From Pseudomonas sp. Os17 (lineage in GTDB: Bacteria; Pseudomonadota; Gammaproteobacteria; Pseudomonadales; Pseudomonadaceae), in the NCBI RefSeq assembly GCF_001547895.1, contig NZ_AP014627.1, forward strand, positions 1,987,501-2,051,500: DNA of 64,000 bases. The letters run 5' to 3'. The notes under the pieces are model-generated. The model had not been told where the DNA came from. It was given only the letters and a program-made list of their open reading frames with translations, and searched no databases. Positions 3,559-10,372 of this stretch are shown piece after piece. Every line of letters starts with the position of its first letter. The first letter of the stretch is position 1. The position numbers were made by a program, and so were the translations under genes.

Positions 3559-3626
3559 AGACATTTCAATTTCGATTTCGAGATATTTCTTGATCTTGAT
3601 CCCGGGTTTCATGTATCAACCCGCAC

Positions 3627-4340
3627 ATGCCTAAACATGTTCGATTCGATAAGAAAACAAGAGTGGTCGACGAGCTGATCCGGCGCATTGAAAGCGGTCT
3701 GCTGGAAGACGGCTTCCAACTGCCGGGAGAGCACCAGTTGGCCGGGGAGTTCGGTGTCAGTCGTGGCACCTTGCGTGAAGCCCTGGCCGAGCTCAAGCGT
3801 CGCAACTACATCGCCACGCAGAGCGGGGTGGGGTCCATCGTCACCTTCGACGGCGTGGCCCTGGACCAGCATCATGGCTGGGCCCAGGCCCTGGCCGAGA
3901 GCGGCGCCCTGGTCAACACCGAGGTACTGCGCCTGGAGGCCGTGCGCCGACCGGAGCTCAAGCACCGCCTGGGCACCGACCAGTTCATAGCCCTGGATCG
4001 CCGCCGGCGCAGCACCGACGGCAGGGTGCTGTCCCTCGAACGTTCCCTGATCCCGGCCTCCGGCGAGCTGGAAGGCTTGCCCCGGGTCGGCCTGATCGAT
4101 GATTCCCTGACCATTACCCTGGCCGCCTACGGCTATATCGGCGAGCGCGGCGATCAGTGGATCGGCGCCGAGCCCCTGAACGCCGAAGACGCCGAGCTGC
4201 TCGGGCGGGCGCCGGGAGATGTGTTTCTCAAGGCCCTGCGCACCACCTATGATCGCCAGGGGCGTTTCATGGAGCAGGTCGAGAGCCTGCTCGATCCACA
4301 GCATTTCCGCATGCACCTGCAATTCGGAGAGTCGCGTTGA
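3627..4340 (+). CDS. GntR family regulator, HutC/UTRA subfamily (YegW-like)
   Basis: A 237-aa regulator. Residues 10-75 are a winged helix of the GntR type (PGEHQLAGEFGVSRGTLREALAELKRRNYIATQSGVGSIV). The rest is a UTRA effector domain ending in LDPQHFRMHLQF. In this subfamily the effector is usually a substrate or intermediate of the adjacent pathway. Its stop overlaps the start of the ADP-ribosylglycohydrolase gene (TTGA), so it is cotranscribed and probably translationally coupled with it. With the three following genes it gives the same functional set as E. coli yegW plus yegTUV. It most likely represses its own operon. Confidence 0.88.
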   Translation: MPKHVRFDKKTRVVDELIRRIESGLLEDGFQLPGEHQLAGEFGVSRGTLREALAELKRRNYIATQSGVGSIVTFDGVALDQHHGWAQALAESGALVNTEVLRLEAVRRPELKHRLGTDQFIALDRRRRSTDGRVLSLERSLIPASGELEGLPRVGLIDDSLTITLAAYGYIGERGDQWIGAEPLNAEDAELLGRAPGDVFLKALRTTYDRQGRFMEQVESLLDPQHFRMHLQFGESR

Positions 4341-5335
4341 GCCCGCTTCAGCGGGCACTTGGCGCCTTCTATGGCCTGGCCCTGGGCGATGCCCTGGGCA
4401 TGCCCACCCAATCCTTGAGTCATGAACAGATCCACCAGCGTTTCGGCGTGATCCGCACCCTGGAAGACGCGGGGCCCGAGCAGCCGATTGCTGCCAACCT
4501 GCCCGCAGGGACCATCACCGACGACACCGAACAGGCGATCCTGGTGGGGCGCCTGCTGGTTCAGGGCCAAGGCCGGATCGATCCGGCGGCCCTGGCCCGG
4601 AGCCTGATCCAGTGGGAGGCGGCGATGCAGGCCAAGGGTTCCCAGGACCTGCTCGGCCCGTCCACCAAGCGCGCCATTGAAATGATCCTCGCCGGTGAGT
4701 CGGTGGAGGAGGCCGGACGCTATGGCGCCACCAATGGCGCCGCCATGCGCATCACGCCGGTGGGCATCGCCGCCGATGTCGCCGGCACTCAAGGCTTTGT
4801 CCAGGCGGTGGTCGAGGCCTGCCAGGTCACGCATAACACCAACCTGGGAATCGCCAGCGCGGCAGCGGTGGCGGCGGTGGTGTCCGCCGGCATCAATGGC
4901 GCCGCGTTGATCGAGGCCCTGCCCCTGGGGGCGCAGATTGCCCGCCAGGCACAGGCTCATGGCCATTGGGTGGCCGGGGCCACTATCGCGGCGCGCCTGG
5001 AGTGGGCCGGCACCTTGAGGATTGAAGGCGACAAGCAGGCCTTTGCTCGAATGCTGTATGAACTGATCGGTACCTCGGTGGCCTCCCAAGAGTCGGTGGT
5101 GGTCAGTTTCGCCCTGGCCCGGCAGGTCGCCCTGGGGCACCTTGAGGCCTTCGAGGCACTGTGCATGGCCGCCGGTCTTGGCGGCGACACCGACACCATC
5201 GCGGCGATTCTCGGCGCCATGCTGGGCGCCTGCCTGGGCTTGCAGGCCTGGCCCGCGGAGTTGATCCATCAGGTGCAACAGGTCAATGAACTGGACCTGC
5301 TGCCTCTGGTAGAAGCGTTGCTGGCGCTGCGTTAA
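4337..5335 (+). CDS. ADP-ribosylglycohydrolase (DraG/YegU-like)
   Basis: A 332-aa protein of the DraG/ARH fold, enzymes that hydrolyse N- or O-glycosidic bonds to ribose using two metal ions. Both metal-site signatures are present: Thr61-Asp-Asp-Thr64 and GGDTDT at 282-287. The TTG start overlaps the regulator's stop codon by 4 bases, implying coupling. Next to a GntR/UTRA regulator, a nucleobase-type permease and a PfkB kinase, it is more likely a catabolic glycosidase acting on a small ribosylated compound than a protein de-ADP-ribosylase. That is inference; the substrate is not shown by sequence. E. coli YegU is the nearest analogue I know. Confidence 0.85.
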   Translation: MSPLQRALGAFYGLALGDALGMPTQSLSHEQIHQRFGVIRTLEDAGPEQPIAANLPAGTITDDTEQAILVGRLLVQGQGRIDPAALARSLIQWEAAMQAKGSQDLLGPSTKRAIEMILAGESVEEAGRYGATNGAAMRITPVGIAADVAGTQGFVQAVVEACQVTHNTNLGIASAAAVAAVVSAGINGAALIEALPLGAQIARQAQAHGHWVAGATIAARLEWAGTLRIEGDKQAFARMLYELIGTSVASQESVVVSFALARQVALGHLEAFEALCMAAGLGGDTDTIAAILGAMLGACLGLQAWPAELIHQVQQVNELDLLPLVEALLALR

Positions 5336-5489
5336 GTCGTCGCGCCCAGTGCCGAGCCCCAGGCTCGCTACACCTTTCGGCCGTACTGCCGATCGCTAGG
5401 GAAAGCTGGAACACGGCCAGGAATGCCGGACTGTTCTGTGACTTCCGAAATTGCCAGACACCCCAATAACGGCAACAGGAGTTTCATTC

Positions 5490-6956
5490 ATGAGTTCATC
5501 GACGGTCGGCTCAGGCGCCGGGCAACTGGAAACCCGCGGCATCGAACCGGTACCCGAGGCGGAGTGCAACGGTCATCCGTTGCAGCTGTTCTGGGTCTGG
5601 TTCGCGGCCAATATCAGTATTCTCGGCTTGCCCCTCGGGGCGACGCTGGTGGCGTTTCGTGGCCTGTCGATCTGGCAGGTGCTGTTGGTGGCGATCCTCG
5701 GTTCAGTGGGTTCGTTCGCCGTGGTCGGCCTGATCTCGGTGGCCGGCCGACGCGGTCGGGCCCCCAGCCTGACCCTGTCCCGGGCGATCTTCGGCGTGCG
5801 TGGCAACATCGGTCCGACCCTGGTGTCGATGCTTTCGCGGGTCGGCTGGGAAACGGTGAACACCACCACCGCAGCCTTTGTCCTGCTGTCGCTGAGTTCG
5901 ATCCTGTTCCAGACCCCGGCTTCGGCCAAGGACGCGCCACTGCTGACCCTGCTGTTCATTGGCATCTTCGTACTGATGACCCTGAGCGTCTCCGGCCTGG
6001 GCCACGCCACCTTGCTGGTGATCCAGAAGTGGGCCACCTACGGTTTTGGCGCGTTGAACGTACTGGTGGGCGGTTTCCTCTGCGCCACCATCGACTGGAC
6101 GGCGGTGTTCAATGCGGCACCGGCCCCCATGAGCGCGATGATCATCGGGGTCGGCACCATGGCGGCCGGCACCGGGATCGGCTGGGCCAGCTCCGGGGCC
6201 GACATGTCGCGCTACCAGCATCGCTCGGTGACGGCAGGACGCCTGGTGGCCTCGGCGGCGTTCGGTGCCGGTATCCCGCTGGTGCTGCTGATCACCCTGG
6301 GCGGCCTGCTGTCGGTGGGCAACGATCACCTGGCTTCGGCGGTGGACCCGATCATCGCGATCCGCGACATGCTGCCCACCTGGATGGCCGTGCCTTACCT
6401 GATCGCGGCCTTTGGCGGCTTGCTGCTGTCCAACAACCTGTCGGTGTATTCCGCCGGTCTCACCGCGCTGACCCTGGGCCTCAAGGTCAAGCGGGTCTAC
6501 GCGGTGCTGGTGGATATCGTGGCGATCTTCCTCGGCTCGATCTACTTCATGCTGATTGCCGACAGCTTCTACGGGCCCTTTATCAGCTTCATTTCCCTGC
6601 TGGCGGTGCCGATCACTGCCTGGGTGGGGATCTTCGTGGTGGACCTGATCCATCGCCATTACTACAGCGCCGATGATTTGTTGAATGTCGGGCCCAGCAG
6701 TGCCTACTGGTATCAGGGCGGGATCGAGTGGCGGGCTTTCGGCGCCTGGGTGCTGGCGATCATTCTGGGCTTCTGTTTCACCAGCATCGGCACCACCGCT
6801 GAGGACGTCTGGTTCACCGGGCCGCTGGCCGATTCCTGGCTGGGGCATAACGGCCTGGGCTGGATCGTCACCTTCCTGGTGGCCGGCGGTGGGTACGCTC
6901 TGCTGGGCGGAGCCCGCGATCGGCGTGGGGCCTTTGTCGAGAATGCCAATGCCTAG
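5490..6956 (+). CDS. NCS1 family nucleobase/cation symporter (purine-cytosine permease type)
   Basis: A 488-aa inner-membrane transporter with about 12 hydrophobic segments. The N-terminal region HPLQLFWVWFAANISILGLPLGA is typical of the cytosine/purine permease (CodB-type) branch of NCS1. Family members import nucleobases, hydantoins or related compounds with sodium or protons. Start ATG 5490 is preceded by AACAGGAG; an upstream ATG at 5451 lacks a good site. It lies 154 bp after the glycohydrolase gene and its stop overlaps the kinase start by 8 bp. It presumably imports the substrate of the glycohydrolase/kinase pair. E. coli has an MFS-type transporter (YegT) in the equivalent position. 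Confidence 0.88.
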   Translation: MSSSTVGSGAGQLETRGIEPVPEAECNGHPLQLFWVWFAANISILGLPLGATLVAFRGLSIWQVLLVAILGSVGSFAVVGLISVAGRRGRAPSLTLSRAIFGVRGNIGPTLVSMLSRVGWETVNTTTAAFVLLSLSSILFQTPASAKDAPLLTLLFIGIFVLMTLSVSGLGHATLLVIQKWATYGFGALNVLVGGFLCATIDWTAVFNAAPAPMSAMIIGVGTMAAGTGIGWASSGADMSRYQHRSVTAGRLVASAAFGAGIPLVLLITLGGLLSVGNDHLASAVDPIIAIRDMLPTWMAVPYLIAAFGGLLLSNNLSVYSAGLTALTLGLKVKRVYAVLVDIVAIFLGSIYFMLIADSFYGPFISFISLLAVPITAWVGIFVVDLIHRHYYSADDLLNVGPSSAYWYQGGIEWRAFGAWVLAIILGFCFTSIGTTAEDVWFTGPLADSWLGHNGLGWIVTFLVAGGGYALLGGARDRRGAFVENANA

Positions 6957-7878
6957 GTTGCTCCATAGCGGCCAGGTGATCGTCGACCTGGTGATGGCCG
7001 TGGACCGCCTGCCGCCTGCCGGTGGTGATGTCTTGGCCCAGTCAGCGAGCTTCGAGGCCGGCGGCGGCTTCAATGTCATGGCCGCGGCTGCGCGCAATGG
7101 CTTGCCGGTACTCTACCTGGGGCGCCACGGCCAGGGGCGCTTTGGCGACCTGGCCCGAGCAGCGATGCAGGCGGAAGGCATTGGCCTGAGTCTGCCGTCC
7201 AGCCCGGGTGCCGATACCGGTGTGTGTGTGGCCCTGACCGATGCCTCGGCCGAGCGCACCTTCATCTCCCATATCGGCGCCGAGGGTGAGCTTTCGGCCC
7301 AGGACCTGGCGCAGGTCAGGGTCCAGGCGGATGACTATCTGTATGTCAGCGGCTACAGCCTGCTGCAGGCGAGCAAGGCCCAGGCCCTGATCGACTGGCT
7401 GCTGGCATTGCCGCGCTCGGTGCCCGTGATGTTCGATCCGGGCCCGCTGGTGGACTCGCCCGACTCCCCCCTGATGGCGGCCCTGTTGCCGCGGATCGAT
7501 ATCTGGAGCAGCAACCGCGCCGAAGCCTTGGGCTTTACCGCCAGTTCGAGTATCGAACTGGCCTTGCAGCGGCTTGGTGCGTGGCTGTCACCCACGGCCT
7601 TGCTGGTGCTACGCGACGGCGCTCGGGGCTGTTGGGTAGGCGCCCAGGGGCAACAGGCGCAGGTTGACGGATTCAAGGTCCAGGCGCTGGACAGCAACGG
7701 GGCCGGCGACGCTCATGCCGGAGTCTTTGTCGCGGGGCTGGCGGCGGGGCTTGAGCCACTGGTGGCCGCCCGTCGAGCCAATGCCGCAGCGGCCATTGCC
7801 GTGACCCGCCGTGGTCCGGCCACCGCGCCGGGCCGTGCAGAAGTGGACGCGTTGCTGCAGGCCCGGGAATCTCGCTAA
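6949..7878 (+). CDS. PfkB family sugar/nucleoside kinase (YegV-like)
   Basis: A 309-aa ribokinase-fold kinase. It has the PfkB signature 1 glycine motif GGGFN at 38-42 and signature 2 D248-S-N-G-A-G-D254, where the last Asp is the catalytic base. Substrate is a free sugar or nucleoside; ribose or a ribosyl compound would suit the neighbouring glycohydrolase, but this is inference. ATG 6949 overlaps the permease stop codon (ATG at 6943 is an alternative), so the genes are translationally coupled. The long open frame reaching back to 6685 is read-through of the permease gene in another frame and is not part of the protein. Confidence 0.87.
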   Translation: MPRLLHSGQVIVDLVMAVDRLPPAGGDVLAQSASFEAGGGFNVMAAAARNGLPVLYLGRHGQGRFGDLARAAMQAEGIGLSLPSSPGADTGVCVALTDASAERTFISHIGAEGELSAQDLAQVRVQADDYLYVSGYSLLQASKAQALIDWLLALPRSVPVMFDPGPLVDSPDSPLMAALLPRIDIWSSNRAEALGFTASSSIELALQRLGAWLSPTALLVLRDGARGCWVGAQGQQAQVDGFKVQALDSNGAGDAHAGVFVAGLAAGLEPLVAARRANAAAAIAVTRRGPATAPGRAEVDALLQARESR

Positions 7879-8361: not shown

Positions 8362-9579
8362 TCAGGCCCCGTGGGCCATCTGGGGTGCCTGCAAGCGGCG
8401 CCACCCCAGGCGCGCGAGGCTGATCAGCCAGTTCAGCACGGCAATGGCCAACACGCTGAACAGCAGCGCCTGGATACCGGCCTCGACGATGATCCTGCCG
8501 GCCAGCCAGGGAAAGCCGAACACCCCGATGAAGTAGGACAGGCTGAACAGCAACAGGGATTGTGACGTGTTGCCGTTCGGCGCTTCGTTGGCCGCCAGAC
8601 CATTGATCACCGAATAGGTCAGGCCATAGCCGACACCCAGGACGGCGGCGGCCAACAGGTAGCTGGCGCTGCCGTTCACGGCGAACAGCAACAGCAGGAT
8701 CGATATCACCATCAGTCCCGAGAGCAGGCAGGCGGCGCGGTAGGGATCGTGCCTGACCACGATGCCGGCCAGCAGCAGGCGGCTGGCGATGGCCGCACTC
8801 ATGAAACCGAGGAAGAACAGCGAGTAATCCACGCCTCGGGAGGGGCCGTAGCTGGTCTGGAAACTCGACAGTCCACCAAAGACACAGCCCCCCAGGCCCA
8901 CCATGAGAATGGGGAACAGTGCCTTGGACGAGAGCACGCGGGCCGCGCCGTTGCAGCTGATTTTCGCCGCTGAGGCGCCCAGGTGATTGGTCTGTCGAAG
9001 CAGCTTGGCGCCCAGTTTCCAGAAGATCAGCACCCCCATCAGGCTGGCTGCTGCCGCCAGCCAGAAGGCACTGGTCAACGGGTAGTCGAGGGCGCTGGCC
9101 AAGCGGCCCAGGAGCGGGCCGGAGCCAATGCCGCTCAGCATGCTGCCCGACAGCAGGGCGAAATAGCGCGCCCTTTGTGCGGGCTGCACCAGCGTCGCCA
9201 CGATGATCGGCCCCAGGGTGTAGAACACCCCCCAGCCCAGGCCCAGGGTCAGGCCGAACCACAGCAGGCTGTGGCCGAGCCCCGGCGTCAGGGCAAACCC
9301 CAGGCTGGCCACCACCAGGAGACAGCCGAACAGCGCCACCGAGCGGGCGGCGCCGAGCCAGTCCGAGAGGTGGCCGGAGCCGATCACGGCGACAAAGGTG
9401 CTGAGCATCGCGGCTGCGATCACGCGGCCGGCGTCGTGCTCATTGCCGCCACGGCTGCTGATCAGCAGGGACAGGAGAAAGGTCGAGCCGTAAGACAGAG
9501 ACAGCAGATAGCTGCCCAGGCACAACAGCCCGAACAAGGGGCCTGGCACCTCGGATTGCGGCTTGGCCTGCGTGGACAT
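8362..9579 (-). CDS. MFS transporter
   Basis: A 405-aa polytopic inner-membrane protein with about 12 predicted helices in two halves, a central hydrophilic loop near 200-215, and a major-facilitator motif-A-like loop (SGHLSDWLGAARSVALFG) between helices 2 and 3. This is normal family length. Substrate cannot be deduced; efflux of a small molecule is most likely for this type. It is monocistronic or linked to the small exported protein gene downstream (85 bp). The next gene upstream on this strand is an HD-domain protein whose function gives no hint. Confidence 0.85.
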   Translation of the reverse strand: MSTQAKPQSEVPGPLFGLLCLGSYLLSLSYGSTFLLSLLISSRGGNEHDAGRVIAAAMLSTFVAVIGSGHLSDWLGAARSVALFGCLLVVASLGFALTPGLGHSLLWFGLTLGLGWGVFYTLGPIIVATLVQPAQRARYFALLSGSMLSGIGSGPLLGRLASALDYPLTSAFWLAAAASLMGVLIFWKLGAKLLRQTNHLGASAAKISCNGAARVLSSKALFPILMVGLGGCVFGGLSSFQTSYGPSRGVDYSLFFLGFMSAAIASRLLLAGIVVRHDPYRAACLLSGLMVISILLLLFAVNGSASYLLAAAVLGVGYGLTYSVINGLAANEAPNGNTSQSLLLFSLSYFIGVFGFPWLAGRIIVEAGIQALLFSVLAIAVLNWLISLARLGWRRLQAPQMAHGA

Positions 9580-9694
9580 GAAAGCGCCTCGTCATGCTGG
9601 AAGTCATGCCGGGCTTTCTAACATGGCGCCGCCGCCGGTTGGTTGTGTTCCTGGTGGTCTCAGGGTTAGCCGCCAGCGGAGTAAGCCCGCCGGC

Positions 9695-10372
9695 TCACTC
9701 GCCGATTTCCTCCAGCAACTCCTGTCGGAAGCGTTGCAGGCGCTCTTGCCGGATCCGCGCCAGTCGGGTGCCGCAGGACGTCTGGAAACCTTCGGCCAAA
9801 TGCAGCAGCTTGGTCTGGAAGTGATCCAGGGTGAAGCGTGAGTCATCGAGTTCGCGCTGCCGGGCCGTGGGGTCGGCGGGGTCGTAGAGGGCCAGGCCCA
9901 GACGGCCGGAGACGTAGAAGGTCCGCGCCACGCCCAGGGCGCCCAGGGCATCGAGGCGATCGGCGTCCTGAAGGATCCTGGCTTCCAGGGTGGCAGGGGT
10001 GAGGGCGGCGGAAAAACTGTGGGCGGCGATGGCGTGGGCTACCGCTTCGCGCTCGGCGTCGCTCCAGCCCAGCCCGGCGAGAATGCCGCGGGCCTTGTCC
10101 GCCGACAGACGTGATGCCTGGGCGCGCAACGGCGAGTTTTTTTCCACGCTCACGCAATCGTGGAGCAGGGTGGCGGCCAGCAGCACCCGGAGGTTGCCGC
10201 CTTCTTCGTCGACTATGCGTCGCACGTTGTGCCAGACCCGTTGCAGGTGGGACAGGTCGTGGGAGCCGTCCTTGGTCGGTTCGAGGGCGTGGGGCAGCAA
10301 GGTTTCTGCCAGGGCGTGCAGGGGGGCAAAGTGCATTCGGCGGTCCAGGATATGCGGTTCGGTGTGCTGCAT
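9695..10372 (-). CDS. HD-domain phosphohydrolase (YedJ-like)
   Basis: A 225-aa soluble protein of the HD superfamily, metal-dependent phosphohydrolases. Visible motifs are HDLSHLQRVWHN, LLHDC (the HD pair) followed by the KNSPL segment, and DADRLDALG, all in the order seen in E. coli YedJ-type enzymes. Natural substrate is unknown, possibly nucleotides. The start is uncertain. The frame is open to 10507, but ATG 10372 leaves room for the promoter of the divergent GNAT gene (starting 10465). ATG at 10396 or 10336 are alternatives. Confidence 0.82.
   Translation of the reverse strand: MQHTEPHILDRRMHFAPLHALAETLLPHALEPTKDGSHDLSHLQRVWHNVRRIVDEEGGNLRVLLAATLLHDCVSVEKNSPLRAQASRLSADKARGILAGLGWSDAEREAVAHAIAAHSFSAALTPATLEARILQDADRLDALGALGVARTFYVSGRLGLALYDPADPTARQRELDDSRFTLDHFQTKLLHLAEGFQTSCGTRLARIRQERLQRFRQELLEEIGE

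Follow-up and report, generated by a model that had tools for sequence, protein, structure and literature searches.

The window, by which we mean the whole 64,000-nucleotide stretch of Pseudomonas sp. Os17 DNA analyzed here, carries at positions 3627–7878 a cluster of genes for a GntR/UTRA regulator, a DraG-fold glycohydrolase, an NCS1-family permease and a PfkB-family kinase. All four had been proposed in an initial sequence-only reading, and all four score above their Pfam cut-offs. It is likely that these genes constitute a self-regulated module for using an external ribosylated small molecule, whatever the order of the steps. This proposal starts from gene content, gene linkage, the exchange of transporters beside the same enzymes, the conserved metal-site residues of the hydrolase, and repeats at the start of the regulator gene. 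The substrate class, the order of steps, and repression are inferred.

The specific version that we favor, with a confidence that falls a little short of even, is riboside catabolism by import, phosphorylation, and then cleavage to ribose 5-phosphate. The NCS1 permease would import a riboside whose aglycone lies outside the usual nucleobases, and the PfkB kinase would phosphorylate the still uncleaved riboside at its ribose 5-hydroxyl. The metal-dependent DraG-fold enzyme would then cut the glycosidic bond, releasing the free aglycone and delivering ribose 5-phosphate to central metabolism. The GntR/UTRA protein would keep the operon repressed via repeats located at the start codon of its own gene, and binding of the substrate or a product would end this repression. 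The features concerned are as follows.

3623..3643, + strand: putative autoregulatory operator; two ACATG units (3625 and 3635), exactly 10 bp apart, across the gntR start codon
3627..4340, + strand: GntR/UTRA transcriptional regulator; PF00392 58.3 bits and PF07702 49.8 bits, both above the Pfam cut-off
4337..5335, + strand: YegU-clade glycohydrolase with the DraG fold, 332 aa; PF03747 (ADP_ribosyl_GH) 194 bits versus a cut-off of 26.2
5336..5489, no strand: hydrolase-permease gap of 154 nt; ribosome-binding-like AGGAG at 5477–5481
5490..6956, + strand: NCS1-family permease, 488 aa; PF02133 (Transp_cyt_pur) 177.5 bits versus 23.5, scored for 5451–6953
6949..7878, + strand: PfkB-family kinase, 309 aa; PF00294 150.8 bits versus 25.8

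Linkage of the hydrolase and kinase genes

The sequence-only reading had held that the pairing of glycohydrolase and kinase is conserved, and had named a survey of the gene neighborhoods of YegU and YegV homologs as a check. We fetched 146 loci by their hydrolase (139 distinct hydrolase sequences, with a few regions fetched twice), and the pairing is indeed retained: a PfkB gene lies on the same strand within 4.5 kb of the hydrolase gene in 140 of these loci, including 80 of 81 in Pseudomonas and 60 of 65 elsewhere. A GntR gene is found near the hydrolase gene in 130 of the 146 loci, and a recognized transporter is encoded beside it in 132. The six loci lacking a kinase are two with transporters of the phosphotransferase system (PTS) (L060 and L152), two at contig ends (L102 and L215, the latter with a kinase that begins at the contig end), and two from actinomycetes (L218 and L219). 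Hydrolase and kinase distances are correlated over 63 loci (r = 0.944, a value as high as which was obtained in 0 of 2000 permutations), a relationship to which common descent contributes.

Other PF03747 loci of Pseudomonas served as a control, comprising 27 loci (L230–L256) and the second copy in the window genome (L001, L228). None of these 28 has PfkB, NCS1, GntR, YegT, or ABC-binding-protein matches in the searched flanks, which span at most 1.5 kb except for L228, a distance within which the permease and regulator of the NCS1 arrangement fall and beyond which its kinase lies. Both permease and regulator were detected in the two positive loci of this comparison (L257 and L258). The second PF03747 protein of the window genome (L228, 7335–8657; C1, about 4749864) belongs to another clade, and its 16-kb stretch holds no kinase, permease, or GntR matches.

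Within Pseudomonas, a window-type hydrolase is present in 92 of 199 sampled genomes, the window genome included. Twenty loci were chosen from these 92, 17 for divergence and three as closer relatives, and all 20 share one order of the four genes although their flanks differ, which exceeds what chance would give. In an even class-wide sample, the window hydrolase was matched in one of 369 genomes, the window genome itself (E ≤ 1e-25, with few candidates scored in each genome). A profile of 16 relatives (E ≤ 1e-45) matched 26 of 398 genomes across the phylum, in 13 of 212 genera, and 13 of 296 genomes of an actinomycete class. The clade, which is found in Pseudomonadota, Actinomycetes, and Bacillota, is thus patchy yet wide, and the same four-gene cassette also occurs in Salinicola, Paraburkholderia, Caballeronia, Roseospira, and several Actinomycetes. 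This variant is uncharacterized, widespread, and partly plasmid-borne.

Additional neighbors were surveyed among the 60 largest clusters of open reading frames (ORFs) from 52 loci, part of which were annotated, after setting aside antisense overlaps, genes in synteny within Caballeronia, and the cassette together with its transporters. LacI-type regulators and short-chain dehydrogenases (three and one members scanned, respectively) are common to at least three non-Pseudomonas loci, and both are generic.

Exchange of transporters beside the same enzymes

The claim that hydrolase and kinase are kept while the permease differs is likewise upheld: the hydrolase tree requires six or more switches of transporter type. 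Over the 146 loci, NCS1 permeases account for 105, Pot-like ABC importers for 15, YegT-like symporters for eight, PTS for two, and MFS transporters for two, and 14 loci have none of the reference set. The tree was built by maximum likelihood (quick method) from 77 hydrolases, with Pseudomonas thinned, and the count of switches leaves out the 13 rows without a recognized transporter. Branches flagged as long include those of the PTS and MFS rows and those at which the Lactobacillales and Enterococcus rows join.

Two switches fall on starred branches. One places the ABC loci of Halomonadaceae within the NCS1 clade: their hydrolases are 62–65% identical to that of the Salinicola NCS1 locus and 46–48% identical to that of the Mesorhizobium ABC locus, and their ABC parts are 51–67% identical to the Mesorhizobium counterparts. 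The other groups the YegT loci with the NCS1 loci of Plesiomonas/Photobacterium and Lactobacillales. In Plesiomonas and Photobacterium, YegU-, YegV-, and YegW-like proteins surround an NCS1 permease (the YegU relatives are 56% and 58% identical), which joins E. coli yegTUV/yegW to the window cluster. One actinomycete locus (L213) encodes an NCS1 protein of another subtype, 34–35% identical to the Pseudomonas and Plesiomonas forms. Among the ABC variants, that of Mesorhizobium (L056) encodes a soluble PotD-like binding protein at 9035–10096.

Both PTS loci, one of the beta-glucoside type in Enterococcus and one of the mannose/sorbose type in Klebsiella, are without the kinase. The latter lies on a plasmid (L152, 2065–7788) with two amidohydrolase genes beside the PTS, hydrolase, and GntR genes, and its annotation table has no kinase gene. 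A Yersinia frederiksenii plasmid (L067, 6210–12786) carries genes for GntR, the hydrolase, a SIS protein, PfkB, a phytase-like protein, and a UshA-type nucleotidase.

Comparison with known systems

The likeness to E. coli yegT-yegU-yegV and yegW is closer than the shared logic that had been claimed, since the tree and the identities place both hydrolases in the same clade. Like the window cluster, the E. coli system combines a YegU-clade hydrolase, a PfkB kinase, a GntR/UTRA regulator, and a transporter gene in the operon, and has direct repeats upstream, though with an 11-bp period and another sequence. It differs in its nucleoside:H+ symporter-type YegT (PF03825), in a convergent and diverged regulator gene, in a Glu at hydrolase position 25, and in a regulator that is reported, in the published excerpts available, to sense ADP-glucose. 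Because an NCS1 permease replaces the PF03825 YegT-type symporter, the window cluster is a sister variant rather than a yegTUV operon proper.

A transporter, a glycosidase, and a PfkB-type kinase are also encoded side by side in E. coli psuT-psuG-psuK, where pseudouridine is phosphorylated by PsuK and PsuG then acts on the 5-phosphate. PsuG is of another family than PF03747. The window module would be a variant of this pattern in which a DraG-fold enzyme serves as the glycosidase.

Two further arrangements resemble the window cluster. Staphylococcal cassette chromosome (SCC) elements (S. epidermidis SERP2216–2218; SCCmec V subtype, ST398) carry genes for an ADP-ribosylglycohydrolase, a cytosine/purine-type permease, and a ribokinase in that order, a triad that is tabulated with no function given in the sections seen of PMC3637587, PMC3321955, and PMC3900703. 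Its location on chromosome cassettes is a difference, and the likeness is one of annotation in these papers. The triad is described as adjoining orfX in several SCCmec or SCC-like elements; in S. haemolyticus, IS431 truncates its kinase. A Salmonella locus (L068), whose annotation points to the STM4065–4067 operon, encodes an MFS transporter, a PfkB kinase, a PF03747 hydrolase, and a GntR regulator. It differs in that the hydrolase is of a distant clade (27% identical to that of the window) and the kinase is of the fructokinase type.

Features of the hydrolase

PF03747 is the sole Pfam match of the window hydrolase, and both bit scores and the hydrolase tree place the protein in the YegU clade. 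It is 33.7% identical to E. coli YegU over 332 aa, with a score of 144 bits (tblastn) or 170 bits (blastp), compared to 72–95 bits for DraG and MJ1187 from another program (phmmer), which makes the comparison a rough one. With DraG and ARH enzymes (PDB 2woc, 3g9d, 1t5j) it shares the fold family, the TDD and DxD metal-site motifs, and an NGAAMR-type motif. The metal-site residues T61, D62, D63, D284, D286, and T287 are all kept in the window protein. Among 147 hydrolase sequences, T61, D62, D63, H166, G134, M137, and E252 are kept in every one, D284 and D286 in 146 (one gap), and T287 in 145.

The window hydrolase also departs from these enzymes. DraG aligns in two pieces, leaving the region of about residues 190–238 unmatched, and the clustering with transporter and kinase genes is unlike DraG/ARH. 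Moreover, position 25, which we take to be the flap glutamate of DraG/ARH enzymes (DraG E28, ARH3 E41) that is tied to ADP-ribosyl hydrolysis, is Glu in both DraG and MJ1187 but Gln in 126 of the 147 hydrolases, including that of the window. The 21 proteins with Glu are the YegU, Lactobacillales, PTS, MFS, and L218–L221 rows. The window's own hydrolase clade therefore differs from DraG at a position where the YegU clade does not, and this hints at a changed substrate. The equivalog cut-offs for DraG (TIGR02662, 102.3 of 337.05 bits) and Tri1 (NF041672, 54.9 of 490 bits) are both missed.

Permease, kinase, and order of steps

The NCS1 permease meets the Pfam cut-off for PF02133 but falls below that of NCBIfam TIGR00800 (74.4 of 353.1 bits). 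As a single query it gave no PDB match at E ≤ 1, and a profile of 18 relatives gave one PDB match, the hydantoin permease Mhp1 (E about 1e-7). A comparison of the pocket with that of Mhp1, in which the Trp117 equivalent is kept and the Trp220 equivalent is Gly, was not used, the alignment being remote.

The kinase is 32.8% identical to E. coli YegV over 296 aa, and its best PDB match is E. coli ribokinase (81 bits). Residues D13, G38, G40, and N42 and the catalytic GAGD at 251–254 are invariant among 19 aligned relatives, and the counterparts of ribokinase D16, N46, and D255 are present as well. Ribokinase models are its top NCBIfam matches (TIGR02152, 104.2 of 299.65 bits), far below the cut-off of every listed model.

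Elsewhere in its genome, the window organism has a ribokinase homolog (43% identical to E. coli RbsK) encoded side by side with a PF01156 nucleoside hydrolase. Among the 59 genomes common to both samples, a ribokinase (E ≤ 1e-60) is found in 25 of 30 with the cluster and in 13 of 29 without it. The presence of a separate ribokinase together with a strictly kept second kinase suggests that the latter acts on a substrate other than free ribose, and its retention is easier to explain if that substrate is the intact riboside. A PTS phosphorylates its own substrate on entry. Thus, if the PTS carries the hydrolase substrate, the lack of a kinase in both PTS loci would mean that phosphorylation precedes cleavage there; these variants are two only, and distant. 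A distant precedent is Salmonella STM4066, a kinase that the available text of PMC3161100 reports to phosphorylate intact aminoimidazole riboside. The order of steps is perhaps the opposite of the cleavage followed by phosphorylation that the sequence-only reading had claimed.

Candidate cargo

Because transporter types exchange beside the same enzymes, the NCS1, YegT, and ABC importers may well share a cargo. YegT is the member of this set for which published data bear on the point. In the passages seen of PMC11241209, YegT showed no detected uptake when offered gemcitabine, uridine, cytidine, or xanthosine, and those of PMC11979927 give no significant result from isothermal titration calorimetry of YegT with nucleosides bound by NupG. 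The former source lists R136, T140, and E264 as ribose contacts of NupG and Q225, N228, Q261, Y318, F143, and F322 as base contacts. We aligned NupG with YegT and with Pantoea and Vibrio relatives. YegT keeps all three ribose-binding residues, and five of six base-binding residues are changed (F143W, Q225A, N228Y, Y318H, and F322Y, with Q261 kept). YegT therefore appears to be set apart from NupG by its base side, and a transporter whose ribose contacts are kept while its aglycone pocket is rebuilt would suit a riboside carrying an uncommon aglycone.

Canonical nucleosides are disfavored as the cargo, both by what has been published on YegT and by the presence of a distinct nucleoside hydrolase and ribokinase in the window genome; their salvage is not supported. 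NAD salvage was considered on the basis of a Lactiplantibacillus neighborhood (L066) and was kept as a hint, because of three Lactobacillales contexts only this one shows it; the others are L149, which L150 nearly duplicates, and L151. On that plasmid (L066, 3887–10259), genes for a weakly NrtR-like Nudix protein, a nicotinate phosphoribosyltransferase, and an isochorismatase-family protein adjoin the triad, and they are absent from the two other Lactobacillales plasmid contexts. Hydantoin or purine catabolism was set aside as well; hydantoinase A (L214, 6650–8731) and a molybdopterin-binding protein with CoxG (L212, 2684–5127) were found once each, in actinomycete loci.

We speculate, with low expectations, that the module scavenges a cationic or noncanonical N-riboside from NAD or ADP-ribose chemistry, such as the ribosyl-arginine of degraded ADP-ribosylated proteins or a nicotinamide-type riboside. 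Hints in this direction are the aromatic residues W, Y, H, and Y of YegT at NupG base-pocket positions, the PotD-like (polyamine-type) importer of the rhizobial variant with relatives in Halomonadaceae, the NAD-type genes of one Lactobacillales context, and the UshA-type nucleotidase of the Yersinia variant. The DraG fold is, in addition, known for ribosyl bonds. If this were true, the fold would have been redeployed from the repair of ADP-ribosylated proteins to the consumption of their remains.

Regulator and repeats

The window regulator and E. coli YegW share 28.6% identity over 175 aa. Direct repeats of ACA[GTA]G spaced 9–11 bp apart, mostly with a 10-bp period, are present in 103 of 113 gntR start regions, compared to a mean of 0.275 and a maximum of two in a shuffled control (200 rounds, mononucleotide). 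The counts by lineage are Pseudomonas (79 of 82, the window included), rhizobia (10 of 10), Halomonadaceae (4 of 4), Actinomycetes (8 of 9), Roseospira (1 of 1), NCS1-type Burkholderiaceae (1 of 6), and B. stagnalis (0 of 1). The repeats lie ahead of the start codon in rhizobia and across it in Pseudomonas, where the loci are close kin and the repeat overlaps codons, so that coding constraint and descent contribute to its conservation. A genome scan with an operator-like pattern found a match without mismatches only at gntR, from whose sites the pattern was drawn, as well as two places with two mismatches and one control match.

YegU-clade operons have upstream repeats of other sequence (GGTATT or TGGACT type) with an 11-bp period. 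Of 500 shuffles per species, 0–4 equaled the repeats in E. coli, Pantoea, Plesiomonas, and Photobacterium, 23 did so in Vibrio, and 58 in Salmonella. Direct repeats would be an unusual target for a GntR regulator.

Alternative explanations

The same module might operate in the reverse order, with the DraG-fold enzyme cleaving the riboside first and the PfkB enzyme serving as a ribokinase for the released ribose. We consider this somewhat unlikely. It would agree with ribokinase as the best PDB match of the kinase, with the ribokinase models that lead its NCBIfam matches (104 bits, far below cut-offs of 300–341), and with the retained equivalents of D16, N46, and D255; however, a ribokinase homolog is already present in the genome, and the kinase-less PTS variants are hard to explain if free ribose still needs phosphorylation. 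An alternative about the cargo itself, which strikes us as unlikely, is a glycoside of another sugar (e.g., fructosyl, glucosyl, or amino-sugar) for which the kinase makes the matching sugar phosphate. The PTS that replace the kinase in two distant members are of sugar types, the SIS protein of the Yersinia variant has weak GlmS-like matches, and the Salmonella partner kinase matches a fructokinase model best (338 of 450 bits). Nevertheless, the PTS, Yersinia, and Salmonella variants are the most distant members, at 26–35% identity to the window, and closer clades have NCS1, Pot-like ABC, or a symporter with the ribose contacts of NupG. The fold is also one known for acting on ribosyl bonds.

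A role in ADP-glucose and glycogen metabolism, which has been proposed for E. coli yegTUV with GgaR (YegW), is very unlikely for the cluster. GgaR is reported to have ADP-glucose as its effector, which detached it from its target in vitro, and glycogen rose when yegW was lost (PMC10819704, as excerpted); yegV is among the deletions that lowered glycogen on ADP-glucose medium in the text seen of PMC6195507. On the other hand, that effector was picked from annotated gene functions, the tested compounds mentioned in the same excerpts of PMC10819704 being ADP-glucose, glucose, and ADP; the window regulator is only distantly similar to YegW, and the annotated neighborhoods inspected list no glycogen gene. 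Least probable of all, to a degree that we regard as extremely unlikely, is that the DraG-fold enzyme strips ADP-ribose from proteins or nucleic acids in the manner of DraG, Tri1, or ARH3, with its neighbors incidental. Membership in PF03747 with intact metal-site motifs is what such an enzyme would have, but the DraG and Tri1 models are missed (102 of 337 and 55 of 490 bits), position 25 is Gln rather than the Glu of DraG, and the gene is linked to those for a kinase and a transporter. No ADP-ribosyltransferase is named in the annotated neighborhood tables, in which no dedicated search for one was made. Because a recognized transporter and a PfkB kinase accompany the hydrolase in most loci, as counted above, the hydrolase is better read as metabolic than as a protein de-modifier, and the support for the metabolic role is indirect. 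The earlier reading was right in direction on this role, and the ribosylated base that it suggested as cargo is a candidate.

Several observations weigh against the favored reading. These include the sugar-type PTS and the SIS protein, the yegV deletion, and ADP-glucose as the reported effector. PotD-like, PTS, and MFS transporters alone imply no riboside, and in Enterococcus the PTS belongs to the beta-glucoside type. Ten actinomycete loci, several of them on short contigs, have hydrolase and kinase without a transporter of the reference set; a solute-binding protein gene adjoins one of these (L210). In the passages seen of PMC11241209, uptake by the pseudouridine-type transporter PsuT was likewise undetected in the same test, so that the negative YegT result is not decisive, and the three ribose residues are described as invariable among proteobacterial members of the NupG/YegT family, which makes their retention in YegT weak evidence. 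The kinase pocket is ambiguous, and ribokinase E143 was dropped as a test of the kinase substrate because MAFFT and HMMER align different residues there. Finally, in the open-licence literature as consulted (titles, abstract starts, and passages), no enzyme assay of any member of the hydrolase clade was found and, the GgaR work aside, no function for its enzymes.

Gene boundaries and flanking genes

The hydrolase gene starts with TTG and overlaps the stop codon of the regulator gene by 4 nt. From sequence context, the permease most likely starts at the ATG at 5490, behind the AGGAG, rather than at the TTG at 5451, and the kinase most likely starts at the ATG at 6949, giving an 8-nt overlap with the permease gene, as opposed to 6685 in the mechanical ORF. 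A consensus scan lists no terminator-like site in the hydrolase-permease gap (5336–5489), and it is therefore plausible that the four genes share a single transcript. The cluster is flanked upstream by a DUF1285 gene on the same strand and downstream by a convergent MFS gene. Farther upstream (1203–2270), a stand-alone MoaA-like gene encodes radical SAM and Mob_synth_C domains and scores slightly below the MoaA model cut-off (276.7 versus 284.05 bits).

Implications

Proteins of PF03747 are routinely annotated as ADP-ribosylglycohydrolases and taken to be protein de-modifiers, and here a clade that includes a member in E. coli K-12 and, going by published annotation, others in staphylococcal cassettes looks metabolic. 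If this is true, the metabolic reading would explain yegTUV and correct many annotations. In addition, the availability of three unrelated importers (YegT, the NCS1 permease, and the rhizobial ABC system) for one presumed cargo would make screening for that cargo tractable.

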